DNA from: Kitasatospora sp. SolWspMP-SS2h
Lineage (GTDB): Bacteria > Actinomycetota > Actinomycetes > Streptomycetales > Streptomycetaceae
Direction of reading: 5' to 3'
Assembly (NCBI RefSeq): GCF_003259315.1
Contig: NZ_QLLT01000018.1
Location: 1 to 64,000 of the forward strand
Length of the DNA stretch: 64,000 bases
Positions 34,145-48,272 of the stretch are shown one piece after another. The position numbers and the translations under genes are program-made. The notes under the pieces were generated by a model. It did no database searches and was not told where the DNA came from. It saw only the letters and a list, made by a program, of their open reading frames with translations. Position 1 is the first letter of the stretch; each line of letters begins with the position of its first letter.

Positions 34145-36052
<1,908 letters not shown>

Positions 36053-36561: not shown

Positions 36562-38073
36562 ATGCTGATCGGCATCGTCGGAGCCGTTGTCGCAGGGCTG
36601 CTGGTCGTCGTCCTGCTGTTCAAAATGATGTGGCGGGTCGCCGAGCCGAACGAGGCGCTGGTGATCTCGGGTTCCAAGCACGGCGAGGGCCTCGGCTTCC
36701 GCGTGGTCACCGGACGGGGCACCTTCGTGCTGCCCGGCGTCCAGGTGGTCCGGCGGCTGTCACTGGACCTCAACGAGGCCGCGCTGGACGTCGAGTGCGT
36801 GACCTCGCAGGGCATTCCGGTACACGTCAAGGGCGTGGTCATCTTCAAGGTCGGCGACGACCCGGTGTCCATCGCCAACGCCGCCCGCCGCTTCCTGGAC
36901 CAGCAGAAGATGATGGGCCAGCGGGTGCACAACGTGTTCGCCGGCCACCTGCGCTCCATCGTCGGCGGCCTGACCGTCGAGGACATGATCCGGGACCGCG
37001 AGCGGCTCACCGGGGAGACCCGTTCCGCGTCGGGCATCGAGATGGAGAAGCTCGGCCTGATCATCGACTCGCTGCAGATCCAGGAGATCCTGGACCCGAC
37101 CGGCTACATCACCAACCTGGCCGCCCCGCACGCCGCCGCCGTCCAGCGCGACGCCCGGATCGCGGCCGCCGAGGCCGACCGCCGGGCCACCGAGGCCGAG
37201 CAGGAGGCGTTCGCCCGCAAGGCCGAGGCGACCCGCAACTCCGGTATCCAGCAGGCCGGTTACCAGGCCGAGATGGACACCGCCGCGGCCCGCGCGCTGC
37301 AGGCCGGGCCGCTCGCCCAGGCCGCCGCCCGGCAGGAGGTCGTGGTCCAGGAGACCAAGGTCGCCGAGCTGGAGGCGCACCGCAAGGAGCAGCAGCTCCA
37401 GGCGGACGTCCGCAAGCCCGCCGACGCCCGCGCGTACGAGACCCGCACCAAGGCCGAGGCCGACCGCGACGCCCGGATCTCGGCCGCCGAGGCGCTCTCC
37501 CGGGAGACCGACCTGAAGACCGCGGCCGAGGCCAACCGGGTCAAGGTCGCCGCCGCCGCCGAGGCGGAGGCCACCCGGGCCCGCGGCCTGGCCGCCGCCG
37601 AGGCCACCCGCGCCACCGGTGAAGCCCAGGCCGCCGCCGAGGCCGCGAAGGGCCTGGCCGAGGCGGAGGCCGCCCGGGCCAAGGGCCTCGCCGAGGCGGA
37701 GGCGACCCGGGCCCAGGGCCTGGCCGAGGCCGAGGGCATCAAGGCCCGCGCCGCGGCCCTCGCCGAGAACCAGGAGGCGGTCGTCGCCCAGCAGCTCGCC
37801 GAGAACTGGCCCGCCATCGTCCGGGCCGGTGCGGACGCCTTCGGCAACGTCGAGCACATGGTGCTGCTGAACGGCGCCGAGGGCATGTCCGAGATGTTCG
37901 CCAAGGCGCTCACCATGGGCGGCACCGGTCTCGGCCTGGCCCGCCAGCTGCTCACCACGATGACCCCGGCCGCCACTGCCGAGACCCCGGCGCACCAGGT
38001 CGACCCGGCGGCCCCGGCGGACCGCGCCCCGGACACCCAGGTCATCCCGGTCCAGTCCGGCAGCGGCGACTGA
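36562..38073 (+). CDS. Flotillin-like SPFH/Band 7 protein
   Basis: 503-residue membrane scaffold. An N-terminal hydrophobic helix (LIGIVGAVVAGLLVVVLLF) is followed by the SPFH domain (about 28-190, with VISGSKHGEGLGFRVVTGRG and SQGIPVHVKGVVIFKVG). A long coiled coil of Ala/Glu heptads (EAEATRA and GLAEAEAARAKG repeats, about 200-430) comes next, then a flotillin C-terminus with NVEHMVLLNGAEGMSEMFAK. Flotillins organise ordered membrane microdomains. GGGGGAG lies 8 nt before the ATG. The small NfeD-like gene precedes it by 185 bp. Confidence 0.9.
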   Translation: MLIGIVGAVVAGLLVVVLLFKMMWRVAEPNEALVISGSKHGEGLGFRVVTGRGTFVLPGVQVVRRLSLDLNEAALDVECVTSQGIPVHVKGVVIFKVGDDPVSIANAARRFLDQQKMMGQRVHNVFAGHLRSIVGGLTVEDMIRDRERLTGETRSASGIEMEKLGLIIDSLQIQEILDPTGYITNLAAPHAAAVQRDARIAAAEADRRATEAEQEAFARKAEATRNSGIQQAGYQAEMDTAAARALQAGPLAQAAARQEVVVQETKVAELEAHRKEQQLQADVRKPADARAYETRTKAEADRDARISAAEALSRETDLKTAAEANRVKVAAAAEAEATRARGLAAAEATRATGEAQAAAEAAKGLAEAEAARAKGLAEAEATRAQGLAEAEGIKARAAALAENQEAVVAQQLAENWPAIVRAGADAFGNVEHMVLLNGAEGMSEMFAKALTMGGTGLGLARQLLTTMTPAATAETPAHQVDPAAPADRAPDTQVIPVQSGSGD

Positions 38074-38177: not shown

Positions 38178-38255
38178 CATCGTCTCCGCAATCCCGGGCA
38201 GCAGCTGAGTACCCGTACTCACGCCCCGGCCACCGCGCCGCGCCAGCATCGGAGC

Positions 38256-39263
38256 ATGGACCTGCTGCCCCGCGTCGGAATCACCGCCGTCGGCTCCCAC
38301 CTCCCGCAACGGACCGTGACCTCACGGCAGTTGCAGGACGAGGTGGCGGCCGGCGCCCGCCTCCCGCTGCCCGACGGCATGTTCGAGAAGGCCACCGGCA
38401 TCCGCACCCGCCGCTTCGCCGGGCCCGACGAGCACCCCTCCACGCTCGCCCTCGGCGCGGCCCGCCGGGCACTGGCCGCCCGCGGCCTGGAACCCGCCGA
38501 CCTCGACCTGCTGCTGTTCGCCTCCGCCTCCCGGGACGTCTGCGAACCCGCCACCGCCCACCTCGTCCAGGCCGAACTCGGCTCCCGCGCCCACGCGCTG
38601 GACGTCTCCAACGCCTGCAACAGCTTCCTCAACGGCATCGACACCGCCCGGGCGATGGTCCTGGCGGGCCGCGCCCGGCGCGCCCTGGTGGTCACCGGCG
38701 AGACCCCGAGCCGGGCGATGCGCCGCGACCCCTCCGGCCTCGCCGAGTTCCGCGACGGCTTCGCCGGGTACACCTTCGGCGACGGCGGCGCCGCCGTCCT
38801 GGTGGAGCGCGTCGAGCGCGGCGGCATCCTCGACGTGGAGACCCAGACCGCCTCCGAGCACTGGCAGGTCGGCGGCATCCCCGGCGGCGGCTCGCGCCAC
38901 CCGCGCGGCGACGAGTGGAGCTACTTCCGCGGCGGCGGCAAGGAGCTGCGCGGCGTCTTCGAGCGGATCGGCGGCGACATCCTCACCCGGGTCGCCGCCC
39001 GCACCGGCCTCGGCTGGAACGCCTACGCCCGGGTCCTGGTCCACCAGGTCACCCTGCCCTACCTGGAGCGCTTCGTGGAGCTCACCGGCGTGCCCGCCGA
39101 CCGGCTGGTCGTCACCGTCCCCGAGCTCGGCAACCTGGCCTCCGCCACGATAGGCGTCCAACTCGACCTCATCATGCCCGAGTTGGAGACCGGGGACCGG
39201 GTGCTGATGGTCGGCCTGGGCGGCGGCGTCAGCCTGATGACGATGGTCTGGGAGAAGTCGTGA
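38256..39263 (+). CDS. OleA-like / 3-oxoacyl-ACP synthase III-type condensing enzyme
   Basis: 335-residue thiolase-fold enzyme. The catalytic triad is present: Cys121 in SNACNSFLNG, His263 in VLVHQVTLP and Asn293 in ELGNLASAT. Glu97 in SRDVCEPATA sits 24 residues before the Cys, close to the place of the OleA Glu that promotes non-decarboxylative Claisen condensation of two acyl chains and is absent from ordinary FabH. Combined with the neighbouring OleC- and OleD-like genes, an OleA role (head-to-head condensation of fatty acyl-CoA to a beta-keto acid) is more likely than fatty-acid initiation. Its stop overlaps the next gene by 4 bp (GTGA). Confidence 0.8.
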   Translation: MDLLPRVGITAVGSHLPQRTVTSRQLQDEVAAGARLPLPDGMFEKATGIRTRRFAGPDEHPSTLALGAARRALAARGLEPADLDLLLFASASRDVCEPATAHLVQAELGSRAHALDVSNACNSFLNGIDTARAMVLAGRARRALVVTGETPSRAMRRDPSGLAEFRDGFAGYTFGDGGAAVLVERVERGGILDVETQTASEHWQVGGIPGGGSRHPRGDEWSYFRGGGKELRGVFERIGGDILTRVAARTGLGWNAYARVLVHQVTLPYLERFVELTGVPADRLVVTVPELGNLASATIGVQLDLIMPELETGDRVLMVGLGGGVSLMTMVWEKS

Positions 39264-40000
39264 CCGAGCTGTGGGTGATCGTCCCCGCCTACCAGGAGGC
39301 CGCCCGGATCGGCGGCGCCCTGCGCGCCCTCGCCGCCCAGCACGACCGCGACTTCACCCTGCTGGTCGTCGACAACGGCTCCACCGACACCACCGGCGAA
39401 CAGGTGCTGGCCTTCGCCCGCACCGCGCCCTTCCCCGTCCGCCTGCTCGTCGAACCGGAGAAGGGCGTCGGCTGCGCCGTCGACACCGGCTTCCGCCACG
39501 CCATCGACCACGGCGCGACCCTGCTCGCCCGCACCGACGCCGACTGCCTGCCCGAACCCGGCTGGGCCGGCGCCGCCCGCGCCGGGATGCGGGCCTCCGG
39601 CGGGCTGGTCTGCGGACGCGTCACCGCCCGCCGCGACGAACACGGCCCGCTCGGACGGGCCGTCTTCCGCGCCCTGGTCGCCCTCGGCGCCCTCTTCGGC
39701 CGGATCCGCCCCGCCCACCGCCGCCGGCACGGCTACCTCACGCCCTACCGCATGCACGCCGGCAACAACATGGCCATCACCGCCGACCTCTACCTCGCCA
39801 CCGGCGGCATGCCCCGCCGCCCCTCCCCCACCGACCGCGCCTTCATCAACCGCGTCCGCCGCCAGAGCACCGCGATCGTCCGCCGCCCCGACATGGTCGT
39901 CCAGAACTCCACCCGCCGCATCCGCGCCTACGGCCTGCGCGGCACCGCCCGCTGGTACCTCGAACGCGGCGCCGGCCACCGCGGCGTCGACGTCCGGTGA
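39260..40000 (+). CDS. GT2-family glycosyltransferase
   Basis: 246-residue soluble glycosyltransferase of fold GT-A. WVIVPAYQEAARIGGALRAL opens the nucleotide-sugar fold, LLVVDNGSTDTT gives the first Asp, and LLARTDADCLPEPGW gives the DXD metal site near residues 91-95. The acceptor region (YRMHAGNNMAITADLYLATG) is typical of GT2. There are no membrane helices. The GTG at 39260 overlaps the OleA-like stop, so the two are translated together; this strongly suggests a role in the same lipid pathway, perhaps glycosylation of its product. Confidence 0.8.
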   Translation: MTELWVIVPAYQEAARIGGALRALAAQHDRDFTLLVVDNGSTDTTGEQVLAFARTAPFPVRLLVEPEKGVGCAVDTGFRHAIDHGATLLARTDADCLPEPGWAGAARAGMRASGGLVCGRVTARRDEHGPLGRAVFRALVALGALFGRIRPAHRRRHGYLTPYRMHAGNNMAITADLYLATGGMPRRPSPTDRAFINRVRRQSTAIVRRPDMVVQNSTRRIRAYGLRGTARWYLERGAGHRGVDVR

Positions 40001-40084
40001 GACGGCGGGACCCGCCCACTCCCGTCCGTCCCCGTCCCCCTTCCGCCCGCCCGCTCGCCCGCCCGCTCGCGAAGAGGAGTCCCC

Positions 40085-41560
40085 GTGCTCGACCAGCTCG
40101 CCCGCACCCTGCGCGAAGGCGCCTCGCGCCCGGCGCTGCTCACCAGCACCCGCCGCGGCAGCCCCCGGGTGCTCGCCCGGTGCGCGGAGCTGGCCGCGCT
40201 CGCGGACGGGTACGCCGCGGCGCTGCACCACGGGCACGGCCTGCGGCCGGGGGACACCCTGGGGGTGGCGGTGCGCCCGGGGCCGCGGGCCCTCGCCGTG
40301 CTGCTGGCCGCGCACCGGCTGGGCCTGCGCAGCGCGGTGCTGGACCCGGGTGCCGGGCCGGAGGTGCTGCGGGCGCGGCTGGCGCTGGCCCCGCCCGCGC
40401 TGGTCCTGGCGGACTCCGCCGCGCAGGCCGTCGCCGGGTGGGCCCGTCCGCTGGCCCGCCGCGCCCGGCTGGAGCTGCCGCCGCTGGGGGCGCTCGGCCC
40501 GGTGGCGACCGTCGGCCCCCGGCACCCGTGGTGCGCCCGGTCGCTGGCCGGGCACCCGGGGCCCGCCCCGGCCCCGTACGAGGGGGACGGCGACGCGGTG
40601 GTGGTGTTCACCTCGGGCACCACGTCCGCCCCGCGCGCGGTGGTGCACTCGCGGGCCTCGCTCGCCGCCGGGATGCGGGCCGTGGACGCACTGGTGCGCC
40701 CCCGCCCGGGCCGGACGGTGCTCGGCGGGACGACGTTCGTGCTGGTCCCGGCGCTGGCCGCGGGGGCGGTCGTCGCGCTGCCGGCCCGCCGCACCGCCGT
40801 GCTGCAACGCCAGATCGACCGGCTCGCCCCGGACGAGACCTACCTGACGCCGCCCCGGCTGCGGCCCCTGACCAGGCTCACCGGCCGGGTCTGGACCGGG
40901 TCCGCGCCCGCCGACGCCGCGCTGCTGCGCCGGGCCAAGGAGGCGGGGGCGGACGAGGCGTGGGGGGTGTACGCGCTCACCGAGCTGTTCCCGGCCGCGG
41001 CGGTCGAGGAGCGCGACAAGAGCGCCCACGACGGCCCGGGCGACCTGCTCGGCCACCCGCTGCCGGGCGTCCGCACCCGGCTCGGCGCGGACGGCGAATT
41101 GCTGCTCGCCGCCCCGGCCGCCCGCGACCGCTACCTCGGCGAGGACCCGGACCCGTGGGTGCGCACCGGCGACCGGGCCCGTCTCGACCCGGCCGGGCGG
41201 ATCGTGCTGGCCGGTCGGCTCAAGGACATGGTGCTGCGCCGCGCCGAGAACATCTACCCGGGCCTGTACGAGCCCTCGCTGCACCTGCCGGACGTCGAAC
41301 TCGCCGTCCTGGTGGGCGTTCCCGGCCCGGACGGCGACGAGCGCCTGGTCGCCCTGGTCCAGCCCCGCCCCGGCGCCGACCCCCGGCGGCTGCGCGCCGC
41401 CCTGCACGCCCCGCTCGCCCGGATGGGCACCGCCCGCCCCGACGCCCTGCTGCTCGGCCCCGTCCCGCTGACCGGCCGCTCCCGCAAACCCGACCGCGCG
41501 GCGGCCGCCCGCCAGTGCGCCCGCCGCCTCGCCGACCACCCGGCCGGACGGGCGCGCTGA
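40085..41560 (+). CDS. OleC-like AMP-forming acyl ligase
   Basis: 491-residue ANL-superfamily ligase. P-loop FTSGTTSAPRAVVHS near 178-192, adenine motif GVYALTELFPAA near 297-308, the TGD motif VRTGDRARLDPAGR near 358-371 and the hinge GRLKDMVLRRAENIYP near 377-392. OleC enzymes use this fold to convert beta-hydroxy acids to beta-lactones, and the TELFPA in the A5 region resembles the OleC TEALP. It could instead be an acyl-CoA ligase. The GTG at 40085 has GAGGAG 6 nt upstream. It is in the OleA-GT-OleC-P450-OleD run. Confidence 0.75.
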   Translation: MLDQLARTLREGASRPALLTSTRRGSPRVLARCAELAALADGYAAALHHGHGLRPGDTLGVAVRPGPRALAVLLAAHRLGLRSAVLDPGAGPEVLRARLALAPPALVLADSAAQAVAGWARPLARRARLELPPLGALGPVATVGPRHPWCARSLAGHPGPAPAPYEGDGDAVVVFTSGTTSAPRAVVHSRASLAAGMRAVDALVRPRPGRTVLGGTTFVLVPALAAGAVVALPARRTAVLQRQIDRLAPDETYLTPPRLRPLTRLTGRVWTGSAPADAALLRRAKEAGADEAWGVYALTELFPAAAVEERDKSAHDGPGDLLGHPLPGVRTRLGADGELLLAAPAARDRYLGEDPDPWVRTGDRARLDPAGRIVLAGRLKDMVLRRAENIYPGLYEPSLHLPDVELAVLVGVPGPDGDERLVALVQPRPGADPRRLRAALHAPLARMGTARPDALLLGPVPLTGRSRKPDRAAAARQCARRLADHPAGRAR

Positions 41561-41612
41561 CCCCGCCGGACCCGCCCGCCCCCGCCCCCGCCCCCGCCGA
41601 CACCGTCACCCG

Positions 41613-41660
41613 CTGCACCGCTGCACCGCCGCACCGCTGCACCGCCGCACCGCCGCACCG
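41613..41660. repeat. 8-bp tandem repeat (6 units) upstream of the P450 gene
   Basis: Six 8-bp units of CTGCACCG/CCGCACCG fill part of the 125-bp gap between the ligase and the P450 start. The gap before it carries CCCCGC hexamers that begin just after the ligase stop. Confidence 0.8.
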
Positions 41661-41685
41661 CCGACACCCCATCCCGGAGGGCCAG

Positions 41686-42732
41686 TTGACCGCCGCCCGG
41701 CGCGCCGACCGCACGGTCTACCTGCGCAGCCACCCCCTGCTGTTCGCGCTGCTCGCCGCGACCCGGCACCGGCCGGTGCTCCGGCTCGGCCGCACCGTGC
41801 TGGTCCACCACCCGGACGCCTACCGCGAGGTCCTGACCCGCGTCCCGCTCGACCGGACGGCCGAGCGGACCACCGGCGGCACCGCCGCCCGGCTCACCGG
41901 CGGAAGCCTGCTCTTCGACCAGCAGGGGGCCGAACACCGCGCCGCCCGGAGGGAGTTGACGACCCTGCTGGGCCCGGCCGGGGTGGCCGCGCTGCGCCCG
42001 GTCTGGGAGCGGGTCCTGGACCGGCACCTCGGCGGCCTCGACCGGCCCGTCGACCTCGTCCCCGCCGTCCGCGAACTGGCCGGCGCCACCGCCGCGGCGC
42101 TCACCGGCAGCGACGCCCCGCCGGTGCGGCTGGCGCTCGCCGCAGAGCGGGCCGCGGCCGCCACCGCCCGCGCGCACCTGCCCGCCCTGCTGCCCCGCCC
42201 GGGCGGCGCCCGCCGGGCCCGCACGGCCGCCGACCGGTTGAGCGGGCTGCTGCCCGACCCGCGCGACGCGATGCTCGCCGTCGCCGCGGTCAACACCACC
42301 CTCGCCGCCCTGCCGCGCGCCGTCGCCTGGTGCGCCCGCGAGCGGCTCTGGGACCTGGCCCGCGACGACGCCCCGGCGCTGGCCGCCGAACTGCTCCGCC
42401 GCACCGCCGCGTCCCCCGTCCTCCCGCGCGCCGCGGCCGCCGACGCCACCGTGCTCGGCCACCGCGTCCGCCGCGGCGACCGCCTGCTGCTGGTCGCCCG
42501 GCACGCCGCCGAGGCCCAGCACGACACCCCCGCCCACCCGCACGCCACCCTGGCGCCCTTCGGCCTCGGCCCGCACACCTGCCCCGGCGCCGCCCTCGCC
42601 CGCGCCCAACTCGCCACCCTGCTCAGCACCCTGGCCCCGCACCGCCCGCACGCCCTGCGCACCTCCGCGCACCCCGGCAGCGCCCTGCCCTCCTACCGCA
42701 CCTGCGTCATCGGCCCGCCACGCCCCCGTTGA
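41686..42732 (+). CDS. Cytochrome P450 (short, atypical)
   Basis: 348-residue P450, about 50 residues shorter than usual. The haem loop FGLGPHTCPGA (Cys near 301) and the ExxR pair (AAELLRR) are intact. The I-helix reads VAAVNTTLAAL: the Thr that activates oxygen is there, but the usual acidic neighbour is Asn, as in some P450s with altered proton relay or peroxygenase behaviour. The segment after ARHAAEA is compressed. The only plausible start is the TTG at 41686, preceded by GGAGGG 4 nt upstream. Probably oxidises the pathway lipid (inferred from context). Confidence 0.78.
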   Translation: MTAARRADRTVYLRSHPLLFALLAATRHRPVLRLGRTVLVHHPDAYREVLTRVPLDRTAERTTGGTAARLTGGSLLFDQQGAEHRAARRELTTLLGPAGVAALRPVWERVLDRHLGGLDRPVDLVPAVRELAGATAAALTGSDAPPVRLALAAERAAAATARAHLPALLPRPGGARRARTAADRLSGLLPDPRDAMLAVAAVNTTLAALPRAVAWCARERLWDLARDDAPALAAELLRRTAASPVLPRAAAADATVLGHRVRRGDRLLLVARHAAEAQHDTPAHPHATLAPFGLGPHTCPGAALARAQLATLLSTLAPHRPHALRTSAHPGSALPSYRTCVIGPPRPR

Positions 42733-42824
42733 CCCGCGCCCGCGCCCGCGCCCGTCCCGCCACCCCGCCGGCATGCCAACGCCCCCATCACGCCCGCCAT
42801 CCCGCCCGCCCGCGAAGGACCGCC

Positions 42825-43718
42825 GTGCCCCCGTTGACCCTCGCCCTCACCGGCGCCACCGGCTTCTGCGGCGCGCACCTCGCCGCCCTCGCCACCGCCC
42901 AGGGCCACCGGGTGCTGGCCCTCGGCCGCCGCCCCGCCCGGCACGGCGCGCACGTCCGCTGGGACGCCGCCGCGGACACCGCCGCCCCGCCCGAACTGCG
43001 CGCGGCGGACCTGGTGGTGCACTGCGCGGCGGCCGTCGGCGACCACCCCCCGGGCTCCCCCGCCGAACGGGACCAGTACGCCGTCAACGTGCGGGCCACC
43101 CGGCGGCTGCTGGAGGCCGCCGCCGGGACGCCCTTCGTGTTCGTGAGCAGCGCCAGCGTCTACGACCCCCGCCCCGACCGGTCGCTGGTCACCGAGGAGC
43201 ACCCCACCGCCGCCGGCCACCTGAACGCGTACGGGCGGACGAAGGCCCGCGCGGACGCCCTGGCGCTCGCCGCCGGCGCCGTCGTGCTGCGCCCGCGCGC
43301 GGTGTACGGGCCGGGGGACCCGCACCTGGTGCCGCGGCTGCTGGCCGCCGTCCGGTACGGGGTGCTGCCGCTGCCGGGCGGGGACGTCGAGCTGAGCCTG
43401 ACCGCGGTGGAGAACCTCGCCGCGGCGTGCCTGGCCGCCGCCGACTGGCCGCCGGGGGCGTACAACGTCGCCGACCGCGCCCCGTACCGGCGGGACGCGG
43501 CGCTGCGCCGGGTGCTCGCGGCCCACGGCCGCCGGGCCCGGCTGCTGCACGTCCCGCCCCGGCTGGCGGCGCTCGCGGTCGGCCGCCGCCCGCAGGTGAC
43601 GCGCTACGCGCTGGACCAGCTCGCGCACCGCGTGGTGCTGGACACGCGGAAGTCCCGGTCCCGGGGCTTCACCCCGGGCCGGGACCTCGACGACTACCTC
43701 TCCCGCCTCACCGGCTGA
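42825..43718 (+). CDS. OleD-like NAD(P)-dependent SDR (extended, 3-beta-HSD/epimerase type)
   Basis: 297-residue extended short-chain dehydrogenase. Nucleotide-binding ALTGATGFCGAHLA near 6-19, catalytic Ser region FVFVSSASVYD near 103-113, YGRTKA (YxxxK) near 134-139, and the RAVYGPGDPHL motif near 155. OleD reduces the OleA beta-keto acid to a beta-hydroxy acid for OleC. The GTG at 42825 has AAGGA 5 nt upstream. Last gene of the five-gene run; its stop lies in a repeated CGGCTGACCG element that recurs at 43736 and 43752. Confidence 0.8.
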   Translation: MPPLTLALTGATGFCGAHLAALATAQGHRVLALGRRPARHGAHVRWDAAADTAAPPELRAADLVVHCAAAVGDHPPGSPAERDQYAVNVRATRRLLEAAAGTPFVFVSSASVYDPRPDRSLVTEEHPTAAGHLNAYGRTKARADALALAAGAVVLRPRAVYGPGDPHLVPRLLAAVRYGVLPLPGGDVELSLTAVENLAAACLAAADWPPGAYNVADRAPYRRDAALRRVLAAHGRRARLLHVPPRLAALAVGRRPQVTRYALDQLAHRVVLDTRKSRSRGFTPGRDLDDYLSRLTG

Positions 43719-43809: not shown

Positions 43810-44010
43810 CTAGTTCCGGGCGGCCTTCTTGACCAGGATCACCACGACCGCGGCGATGCCGACCAGCACCAGCACGTTGACGGCGAAGCCGACGATGCCG
43901 ACCACCACGCCCACGATGGTCCAGAAGACCTTCCAGGCGATCACCAGCAGCAGGATCGGGACCACGATGTTGCGCACCCACGAGGGCAGCGACTTCCAGA
44001 ACTCGGCCAT
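43810..44010 (-). CDS. DUF5326-like small membrane protein
   Basis: 66-residue protein with two hydrophobic helices (about 13-34 and 38-60: VVPILLLVIAWKVFWTIVGV, VLVLVGIAAVVVILV) and a basic end KKAARN, of the DUF5326 type found in streptomycetes. Function unknown. AAGG lies 7 nt before the ATG at 44010. It is a single gene between the Ole-like operon and tenA. Confidence 0.75.
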   Translation of the reverse strand: MAEFWKSLPSWVRNIVVPILLLVIAWKVFWTIVGVVVGIVGFAVNVLVLVGIAAVVVILVKKAARN

Positions 44011-44175: not shown

Positions 44176-44832
44176 TCAGACCGGCCAGGTCTCGCCACGC
44201 CAGGCGGCGTCCCAGAACATCCACTCGTAGCGCGAGGTGGTGGTGAAGTGCCCGACCACGCGCCGCCGTTCGGTCGCCGAGAGCTCCTCGCCGATCCGGT
44301 CGGTGAGGTCCAGGACGCGGCGCACCACGGCCTGGAACTCCTCGTCGCCGTACGCGGCGATCCACTTGGCGTAGAGCGGTTCGGGCGAGGAGCGGCGGGC
44401 CAGCTCCGCGCCGACCCGGGCGTAGATCCAGTAGCAGGGCAGCACGGCGCCGAGCGCCTCGGCGAAGGAGCCGCCGTAGACGGTGGCCAGCAGGTAGCTG
44501 GTGTAGGCCCGGGTGGTGGGCAGCACCGGTTCGTCGTCGACGTCCGGTCCGCCCAGCGCGCCCATGAACTCGCCGTGCATGTCCTGCTCGGCGGCGATCG
44601 CGCCGACCGCTTCGTGGGCGAAGGCCAGCACCTGGTCGTCGCCGGGGGCCTTGGCGGCGCAGACGGCCAGCGCCCGGGCGTAGTCGCGCAGGTAGTGGGC
44701 GTCCTGGACGACGAAGTGGCGGAACGCGTCGCGCGGGAGGGTGCCGTCGGCGAGGCCGAGCAGGAAGGGGTGGTCGAGTATCCGGCGGTAGGTCGGCTCG
44801 GCGGCCGTCCACAGTTCGTCGGTGAGCTTCAC
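44176..44832 (-). CDS. tenA: TenA-family thiaminase II / aminopyrimidine aminohydrolase
   Basis: 218-residue all-helical enzyme that salvages thiamine breakdown products by hydrolysing aminopyrimidines to HMP. The nucleophile Cys is in AVLPCYWIYARVG near 132, the N-terminal acidic pocket in FVVQDAHYLRDYARAL near 40-55, and the catalytic Glu in SRYEWMFWDAAW near 205. The GTG at 44832 has GGAGG 7 nt upstream. It is about 8 kb from thiC and has no obvious TPP riboswitch. Confidence 0.9.
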   Translation of the reverse strand: MKLTDELWTAAEPTYRRILDHPFLLGLADGTLPRDAFRHFVVQDAHYLRDYARALAVCAAKAPGDDQVLAFAHEAVGAIAAEQDMHGEFMGALGGPDVDDEPVLPTTRAYTSYLLATVYGGSFAEALGAVLPCYWIYARVGAELARRSSPEPLYAKWIAAYGDEEFQAVVRRVLDLTDRIGEELSATERRRVVGHFTTTSRYEWMFWDAAWRGETWPV

Positions 44833-46559: not shown

Positions 46560-48272
46560 TCACCCGTCCCGTCGGTCCTCCCGCGCCGCCAGGTCGTGCC
46601 GGACCCGCCCCTCCGGCACCCCGCAGCGCCGCAGCACCGCCGCCCCGGACCGCACCATCGCCGCCGGGCCGCTCAGGTACGCCGTGAAGCCGTGCCAGGG
46701 CGCGTACCGGGCCACCACCTCCGGCAGGTCCCCGACCAGCGCCCCGACCGGCCCGCCCGGCTGCTCCGACACCACCGGACGCACCGTCAACCAGGAGTGC
46801 TCGGAGGCCAGTTCTCGCAGCTCCTCCAGCCGGTACAGCTCCTCGGCCCGCCGCGCCCCGTAGAACACCTCCACCCGGCGCCCGGCCGCGCCCCGCTCGG
46901 CCACCTCCTCGACCAGCGCGGCGATCGGCCCGATCCCGGTGCCGCCGCCCAGGCACAGCAGGTCTTCCCCCGCCGCGTGGTCCACCGTCATCGCGCCCTC
47001 CGCCGCCCCCAGCCGCAGCACGTCGCCCGGCCGCGCCCGGTGCACCAGCGCGTTGCTCACCCAGCCCGCCGGCACCGCCTTCACGTGCAGCGTCAGCAGC
47101 CCGTCCGGCCGCGGCGCCGAGCCGAACGAGTACGGCCGCCACACCCGCGGCCACCACGGCGTCTCCACCGCCGCCCACTGCCCGGCCCGGAACGGGTACG
47201 CCTGGTCCGGACGGAGCGTCAGCACCGCGACGTCCCGGGTGGCCCGGCGGTGCTCCACCACCTCGGCCTGCCACCACGGCGGGGCCGAGCGGGCCTCCTC
47301 GTCCGCGCCCTCCGCCATCAGCCGGGTCACCAGCGCCAGCAGCCGCCGCCAGGCCGCCTCGGTCCGCTCGTCCCAGCCGCTGCCGCCGTACCGGGCCAGC
47401 GCCGCCACCAGGCAGTCCGCCACCGAGGCGTAGTGCCGGGGCAGCGCCCCGTACGTGCGGTGCCGCCGCCCCAACGGGCCCAGGTACCCGCGCAGTTCCT
47501 CCGGGTCGCCGGCCCGGGACGCGCAGAGCCGCAGCGCCTGGAACAGCCGGGCGCGCTGCTCGTCCATCGCGGCCGGGAACATCGCCCGCAGCTCCGGGTG
47601 GCGCAGGAACAGCAGCGCGTGGAAGTGCGCCATCGCCCGGTCCGCATCCGGTGCCACCGCGGCCAGGCAGGCCCGCACCAGCACCAGGTCCTCGGGTCCC
47701 GGCGGTTGGACCGGCGGCGCGTCCGCCCCGGCCGGCTCCAGCGCGGGCGGCGGCTCGACCGCCGCCGGCACGCCCCAGGCCCGGCTCCACCGGTCGTCCG
47801 GACCGACCCGGTTCGGCCCCGGCGCCGACTGGAACAGCGGCTCGAACGGCACCGGGACGGCCGCCGCGGGCACCGGCACCACCGCGGGCACCGTCGGCGC
47901 CCAGGTCGGCTTCGCCGGCACGGCCGGCACCGGGGTCAGCCCGGCCGGCCCCGTGGCGGCGGTCGGCTCCCCCGACTCCACCGATTCCCCCGGCGGTACC
48001 GGCCCCAGCGGCACCGGGAGCCCGGCGGCGGCCGGGAACGCGGCCGGGAACGGCCCGGGCTCCGGGGCCGGCCCTGACCCGGCGGCGGGCTGCTCCGCCG
48101 GGTCGGACGGCTCCCGCTGCTCCAGGGCGGTCGGAGGTTCGTCCGCCGGCTCGGCCGGGGCGGACGGGGTGGCGGCGGGCTCGGCACCGGAGGGCACGGG
48201 ACCGGCCGCGGTGCCCCGGCCGGCCTCCGCCTTCGACGGCCTGCTCTCCCGGACGAGCTGACGAGCGCTCAA
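46560..48272 (-). CDS. Flavohemoprotein-like NO dioxygenase with long Pro/Ala-rich N-terminus
   Basis: About 570 residues. The first 185 are Pro/Ala/Glu low complexity. A globin domain follows (about 190-325; AMAHFHALLFLRHPELRAMF, proximal His in GRRHRTYGALPRHY). In the B-helix the Tyr of typical flavohemoglobins (FYxxLF) appears as His (FHALLF). The reductase has an FAD site VWRPYSFGSAP and an NAD site LCLGGGTGIGPI, with YLSGPAAMV near the end. It should oxidise NO to nitrate with NAD(P)H, though the B10 change may alter ligand affinity. The start is uncertain: TTG at 48272 is used, because codon bias is lost upstream of it; an ATG at 48383 is in frame. Confidence 0.82.
   Translation of the reverse strand: MSARQLVRESRPSKAEAGRGTAAGPVPSGAEPAATPSAPAEPADEPPTALEQREPSDPAEQPAAGSGPAPEPGPFPAAFPAAAGLPVPLGPVPPGESVESGEPTAATGPAGLTPVPAVPAKPTWAPTVPAVVPVPAAAVPVPFEPLFQSAPGPNRVGPDDRWSRAWGVPAAVEPPPALEPAGADAPPVQPPGPEDLVLVRACLAAVAPDADRAMAHFHALLFLRHPELRAMFPAAMDEQRARLFQALRLCASRAGDPEELRGYLGPLGRRHRTYGALPRHYASVADCLVAALARYGGSGWDERTEAAWRRLLALVTRLMAEGADEEARSAPPWWQAEVVEHRRATRDVAVLTLRPDQAYPFRAGQWAAVETPWWPRVWRPYSFGSAPRPDGLLTLHVKAVPAGWVSNALVHRARPGDVLRLGAAEGAMTVDHAAGEDLLCLGGGTGIGPIAALVEEVAERGAAGRRVEVFYGARRAEELYRLEELRELASEHSWLTVRPVVSEQPGGPVGALVGDLPEVVARYAPWHGFTAYLSGPAAMVRSGAAVLRRCGVPEGRVRHDLAAREDRRDG

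Follow-up and report, generated by a model that had tools for sequence, protein, structure and literature searches.

A conserved five-gene OleA-type cassette of Kitasatospora, lacking OleB and with a ligase beside the OleC clade, as a candidate glycosylated-lipid operon

We analysed a stretch of 64,000 nucleotides from Kitasatospora sp. SolWspMP-SS2h (contig NZ_QLLT01000018.1, positions 1 to 64,000; hereafter the window), which belongs to a 7.58-Mb draft genome. At 38256-43718 it holds five co-directional genes, hereafter the cassette, for an OleA-type condensing enzyme, a family 2 glycosyltransferase (GT2), an AMP-forming ligase, a cytochrome P450 and an extended short-chain dehydrogenase/reductase (SDR), without a gene for OleB (Table 1). 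The first-pass annotation had read them as OleA, GT, OleC, P450 and OleD. All five were confirmed as open reading frames with coding-type base composition, the GTGA overlap that it had seen between the first two genes lies at 39260-39263, and its GT2 and P450 assignments agree with the Pfam matches; the start codons in Table 1, the TTG of the P450 gene included, are our own choices.

Table 1. Features of the cassette and its surroundings, in coordinates of the window
Feature	Position	Strand	Remarks
ThiC	34145-35935	-	upstream flank
Flotillin-like gene	36562-38073		upstream flank
Palindrome TGAGTACCCGTACTCA (TGAGTAC-NN-GTACTCA), 16 bp, candidate regulator site	38206..38221	.	34 nt before OleA ATG
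OleA-type condensing enzyme, 335 aa	38256..39263	+	ATG start; Pfam ACP_syn_III and its C-terminal domain
GT2 glycosyltransferase, 246 aa, DxD-type RTDAD	39260..40000	+	GTG start; Pfam Glycos_transf_2
AMP-forming ligase, 491 aa, separate clade beside OleC	40085..41560	+	GTG start behind GAAGAGGAG; Pfam AMP-binding
Cytochrome P450, 348 aa	41686..42732	+	TTG start behind GGAGGG; Pfam p450 2.2e-8
Extended SDR, 297 aa, sister clade of OleD	42825..43718	+	GTG start behind GAAGGA; Pfam Epimerase
66-aa open reading frame	43810-44010	-	downstream flank
TenA	44176-44832	-	downstream flank

Scanning the contigs of GTDB species gave 202 stretches with an encoded relative, of which the best 80 were used as loci. 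All five genes reached at least 60 bits in 57 of these 80; the remaining 23 include contig-end cuts and Actinomadura loci with a P450 below 60 bits. The 4-nt overlap of OleA and GT2 is kept in 55 of the 75 loci compared, and linkage and overlap together are more than chance. The flotillin/ThiC/TenA flanks were seen only in Kitasatospora or close Streptomyces loci and are absent from L035, L043 and L045; since the flanking genes vary between loci, the unit is the five genes. Of 61 genomes of the genus, 33, counting that of the window, encode an OleA that is 78-100% identical over near full length, and G040 has a 46% identical OleA relative with a cassette of its own. The cassette also occurs in many Micromonosporaceae, and Actinomadura, Nocardioides and other families have related forms. 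Twelve same-genus genomes without the cassette were compared: five gave a flotillin match (E 1e-100), and in three of these (L289-L291) the 66-aa gene and TenA come immediately after the flotillin gene, which makes this an empty site. In G035 a single deletion has brought the end of the SDR gene up to oleA at about codon 101, with both flanks retained. The locus L188 (6365-6803), from one Kitasatospora genome, shows the scar of a deletion of nearly the whole cassette, the flanks and the palindrome being kept.

The assignment of the first gene product to OleA holds. Glu97, Cys121, His263 and Asn293, as placed in the first-pass annotation, are invariant in 81 of 81 sequences (the window and the 80 loci), and, apart from its last residue (Asn in place of Leu), EPATA-x14-DVSNACN agrees with the pattern EPxx[AS]x(14,18)DxxNACL that PMC7158056 quotes for OleA. 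The NCBIfam models PRK09258 (169 bits) and PRK09352 (165 bits) came first and FabH next, each below its own cut-off. The OleA tree is unrooted, carries long-branch warnings and has 61 rows, in which 28 of the 80 cassette loci were picked for spread, the 96-residue remnant of L188 was excluded, and L140, L147 and L150 are absent for want of an OleA match. In it, five FabH-like rows taken from the genus make up a clade of their own, and the window OleA lies outside this sampled FabH clade, within a 43-row clade (98/95) that holds the cassette OleAs of the tree together with OleAs of other clusters; a third group unites the OleAs of OleBC-fusion loci with two lipstatin-like OleAs. Inside the 43-row clade, the Actinomadura-type OleAs group (100/99) with L175 and 13 rows, nine of them beside true OleC/OleD. 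Unlike the OleA tree, the ligase and SDR trees keep the cassette members in one group, and OleA may thus have been exchanged between the cassette and OleC/OleD pathways, at least twice when the Micromonospora hybrids L050, L053 and L085 are counted. Such an exchange argues for the same kind of OleA product in both. The hybrids, in which an OleA 65-67% and a P450 54-57% identical to the window's stand beside true OleC and OleD, likewise suggest that the product of a window-type OleA is usable by OleC and OleD.

The ligase has to be described differently. The name OleC-like proved too strong: OleC is its nearest relative in the trees, but the ligase lies outside the OleC clade and its profile score is low. 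In the ligase tree, 28 OleC rows form a clade (100/100) that excludes the 27 cassette ligases, also 100/100, the two being joined at 88/69, and a FastTree of 89 rows with more ANL enzymes of the window genome gave 1.0, 0.999 and 0.991 for the OleC clade, the cassette ligases and their union. The cassette ligases thus probably form the sister of the OleC clade, in trees that take 25 of the 80 cassette loci and L175, a row from 13 of 14 own-genome loci, and their other ANL classes from the window genome only plus one domain of a non-ribosomal peptide synthetase (NRPS); L095 (45% filled), L164, L172 and L174 were left out of the motif comparison and the larger FastTree. Against the model NF045786, five true OleCs scored 475, 459, 541, 304 and 489 bits, compared with 82 and 91 for two ligases of the Actinomadura type and 46.5 for the window ligase; at E 1e-15 the ligases of L081, L048 and the window gave no match, and the curated cut-off of 900 is reached by neither the true OleCs nor the window ligase. 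PRK09274 gave the true OleCs 344-556 bits, the window ligase 79 and that of L048 78, with 126 and 143 for the Actinomadura type. In 73 OleC-conserved columns, the cassette ligases share the majority residue in 46 and differ in 27; Arg replaces the P-loop Lys in 26 of 26, and their A8 sequence is their own. The C-terminal Lys468 is present in 26 of 26, so the ligase is not obviously dead. A comparison with acyl-CoA synthetases was mixed, as OleC-type and general acyl-CoA synthetase models scored about equally and OleC remained nearest in the trees. The fold is that of ANL enzymes in general, and structure alignments of 26 and 25 selected rows were made; when a true OleC was used as the structure query, none of the best 60 of 187 matches bore the name OleC, so the fold is not decisive. 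No OleC was found in the window genome at E 1e-60 (6 of 95 candidates scored), and 27 of 197 class genomes have one. Because the ligase lies outside OleC, its reaction cannot be read from OleC, and closure of a beta-lactone would be an argument by analogy.

The SDR, called OleD-like before, is indeed related to OleD, but as a member of a sister clade only (94/89, in a tree with 15 + 4 cassette loci, L175 and 10 SDRs of the window genome). OleD models were its best matches, at 66-72 bits versus 199-368 for four true OleDs, and under NF042422 two other SDRs of the window genome score slightly above it. Of 57 better-scoring P450 relatives, 53 have the heme Cys motif and 40 an Asn-Thr-Thr pattern; by our own reading, the latter would replace the usual P450 acid-alcohol pair. 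The RTDAD motif of the GT2 is kept in 72 of 75 relatives.

The five-gene set is not new; what is added here are the clade positions of the condensing enzyme, the ligase and the SDR, the variant architectures and the palindrome, with the ligase as the main correction. The same set without oleB has been reported from Actinoplanes atraurantiacus (PMC7064751, mBio 2020), with a proposal of condensation, reduction, hydroxylation, glycosylation and beta-lactone closure leading to a glycosylated beta-lactone; the gene-context section of that paper reports no isolated product. Among the papers listed from the open-licence PMC literature we saw the set in no other, and we found no reported product. The first-pass annotation likewise knew of no described product for this gene set, but the set had already been described, and a glycosylated beta-lactone proposed for it, in 2020. 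The A. atraurantiacus locus (L081) has the same five genes in the same order, 66, 67, 63, 47 and 52% identical to those of the window, and the window has the defining content of this type, namely OleA, GT, ligase, P450 and SDR in order and no OleB. No difference in gene content was seen; the ligase is called OleC in PMC7064751 and falls in a separate clade here.

Other known systems are more distant. With the OleABCD olefin pathway (OleBC-fusion loci L151-L159) the window shares the catalytic residues of OleA and an SDR related to OleD, but it has no OleB, a ligase outside OleC, an additional GT2 and P450, and an OleA of another clade. The OleA-OleC-OleD clusters L143-L146, which we take to be comparable with nocardiolactone clusters, have an OleA 36-38% identical to the window's and in the same 43-row clade. 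Their gene order shows no OleB, although none was looked for; unlike the window, they have true OleC and OleD and no match to the cassette GT2 or P450. Five loci from other Kitasatospora genomes (L176, L178, L180, L182 and L184) are separate OleA-OleC-OleD clusters with true OleC/OleD. The lipstatin-like label of L148 and L149 comes from gene content. Lipstatin-type clusters are defined by true OleC/OleD and an NRPS beside OleA, and the window cassette is flanked instead by flotillin, ThiC and TenA genes. L148, L149 and the hybrids have true OleC, OleD and a large NRPS-like protein, and lack the cassette GT2, ligase and SDR; L050 (9962-17839), like L053 and L085, is a candidate lipstatin-like cluster.

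Architecture labels, assigned to the 80 loci by score threshold, were OleA-GT2-ligase-P450-SDR (36 loci), OleA-GT2-P450-ligase-SDR (14), an additional GT2 behind the ligase (9), this additional GT2 together with a BrkB domain (6, with Pfam run on L070 only), OleA-P450-ligase-SDR without GT2 (3, the hybrids, whose ligase and SDR group with true OleC/OleD in the trees and, for L050, by profile as well) and partial or odd forms (12). A BrkB-type membrane domain fused ahead of the second GT2 was found by Pfam in L070 (13289-14863) and by eye in L090 (13154-14722). GT2 and ligase are fused in L095 (11003-13336) according to Pfam, adjoining OleA, and GT2 and ligase matches lie within one predicted frame of 801 or 784 aa in L234 (6240-8645) and L235 (4289-6643), where OleA is again the neighbour. 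An OleA of the wider clade was found at E 1e-80 in 29 of 394 class genomes, a count that includes the window's and some with true OleC/OleD; L234, L235, L242, L243 and L245 are among 18 regions taken out of such carriers.

We think that the cassette is, on balance, probably an operon for a glycosylated lipid made by head-to-head joining of acyl chains, a judgement that applies to the core chemistry of condensation, reduction, oxidation, glycosylation and carboxyl activation as a whole. In such a pathway, OleA would condense two acyl-CoAs into a 2-alkyl-3-oxo acid with no CO2 released, which the SDR would reduce to the 2-alkyl-3-hydroxy acid; the P450 would add a hydroxyl, the GT2 would attach a sugar, and the ligase would adenylate the carboxyl group for attack by a hydroxyl. 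We infer every one of these reactions, and equally the order of steps, the product, its sugar and the lengths of its chains. This pathway is favoured because the OleA signature is invariant and the window OleA stands apart from FabH and groups with OleAs of true OleC/OleD clusters, because in the trees the ligase is the nearest sister of OleC and the SDR that of OleD, because the five genes are kept together and were lost as a whole unit by one deletion in G035, and because the A. atraurantiacus OleA was active on p-nitrophenyl hexanoate in cells (PMC7064751). By analogy, a glycosylated beta-lactone would be the single most likely end product, although we would give it somewhat less than an even chance, and an ester or amide to another partner comes next as a plausible but less likely outcome. 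The earlier inference of a glycosylated beta-lactone or long-chain lipid is thus sustained in its OleA and its lack of OleB, but closure of the beta-lactone would follow from analogy and not from membership in OleC.

Several observations weigh against this pathway. Purified A. atraurantiacus OleA, obtained in small amount, was inert with the acyl-CoAs tested (PMC7064751). The window ligase is not a true OleC by tree, profile or motifs, and its closest solved relatives are amide bond synthetases. In L095, L103, L234 and L235, OleA and ligase stand without an adjacent P450 or OleD-like gene (L103 does have another kind of short-chain dehydrogenase nearby), no SDR match was found in L242 and L243, and L245 matches only OleA and P450. 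The predicted fold, moreover, ranks PqsD and FabH level with OleA: an AlphaFold2 model (mean pLDDT 88) matched PqsD first, with FabH and Xanthomonas campestris OleA at similar scores, and is not decisive. PqsD was also the best phmmer and Foldseek match, and for this reason we kept the idea of a FabH/PqsD-like enzyme that condenses an acyl-CoA with a malonyl unit to a small acyl or aryl product and no head-to-head lipid; the separate clade of FabH-like rows from the genus and the invariant Glu97 and EPxxA signature of the OleA type make it quite improbable. An olefin pathway of the usual kind, with OleB encoded at another place in the genome, is rejected as highly improbable. The OleB domain of an OleBC fusion found four matches in the window genome, the best at 28% and E 4e-9, which appears to be the level expected of general alpha/beta-hydrolases, so that the reported lack of OleB stands; the genome has no OleC at the threshold given above, and A. 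atraurantiacus, too, has no oleB according to PMC7064751.

A more serious competitor starts from the ligase, whose position outside OleC, Arg in place of the P-loop Lys and A8 sequence of its own would suit an enzyme that, instead of closing a beta-lactone, activates the 2-alkyl-3-hydroxy acid and couples it to a sugar or amine through an ester or amide bond; the result would be a mycolate-like glycolipid of the membrane or surface. FadD32, Pks13 and CmrA act in mycolic acid synthesis and are the comparison for this possibility. Among solved chains, amide bond synthetases come closest, at 23-25% identity, but feruloyl-CoA synthetase and FadD13 score nearly as well against the ligase profile, and OleC is still the nearest clade. 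The GT2-ligase fusions of L095 (Pfam), L234 and L235 (gene prediction) and the BrkB membrane domain with a second GT2 in 6 of 80 loci would also suit a glycolipid, but Pfam showed no acyltransferase gene in the window cassette. We regard this alternative as possible but doubtful. Rather unlikely, in our opinion, is its fuller form, a widespread actinobacterial mycolate-like pathway in which OleA would replace Pks13, the new ANL ligase clade, working with a GT2 to which it is fused in the reduced cassettes, would esterify the branched acid to a sugar, and the product would be a membrane or spore-surface glycolipid and no beta-lactone, under a dedicated activator at the fixed palindrome in Kitasatospora.

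The distinction between these outcomes and the glycosylated beta-lactone is important, because the published beta-lactone proposal leans on the ligase being OleC, and that membership fails here. At stake in the ligase reaction is either a second beta-lactone-forming lineage or a new glycolipid-forming ligase. The cassette is widespread in the genus and in many Micromonosporaceae, yet we found no reported product among the papers listed from the open-licence PMC literature; the palindrome and the natural deletion strain are handles for product discovery.

The palindrome is present in 30 of 30 same-genus cassette loci (L001-L030). It also occurs in 18 of 20 named Streptomycetaceae loci, in a weaker version in L090, and is absent from the remaining 61 of the 80 loci; among eight further loci of the family only L204 has it. 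Over 18 loci, conservation of the palindrome bases was 0.965, versus 0.54 and 0.63 in the flanks. In 49 of 49 Streptomycetaceae loci, selected for having the palindrome and from sets that overlap in species, the ATG of an OleA-length frame follows 34-36 nt past it. With its centre at about -42 relative to the ATG, the palindrome could be the activator box of a leaderless transcript. BldM was rejected as the reader because its group I consensus TCACcCgnncGgGTGA differs from the palindrome (PMC4125116). A search with the palindrome letters gave no relevant report among the matches listed from the open-licence PMC literature. The genome holds seven such sites, compared with none for the reversed-pattern control; the other six are L280-L284 and L286, and that of L284 stands at the same distance, 35 nt, ahead of a 96-aa frame for a small, probably membrane protein. 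Farther downstream in the window, 46560-47981 on the minus strand encodes a globin domain fused to FAD and NAD domains; this flavohemoprotein-like protein scores 95 bits against the 432 required by the NO-inducible flavohemoprotein model.

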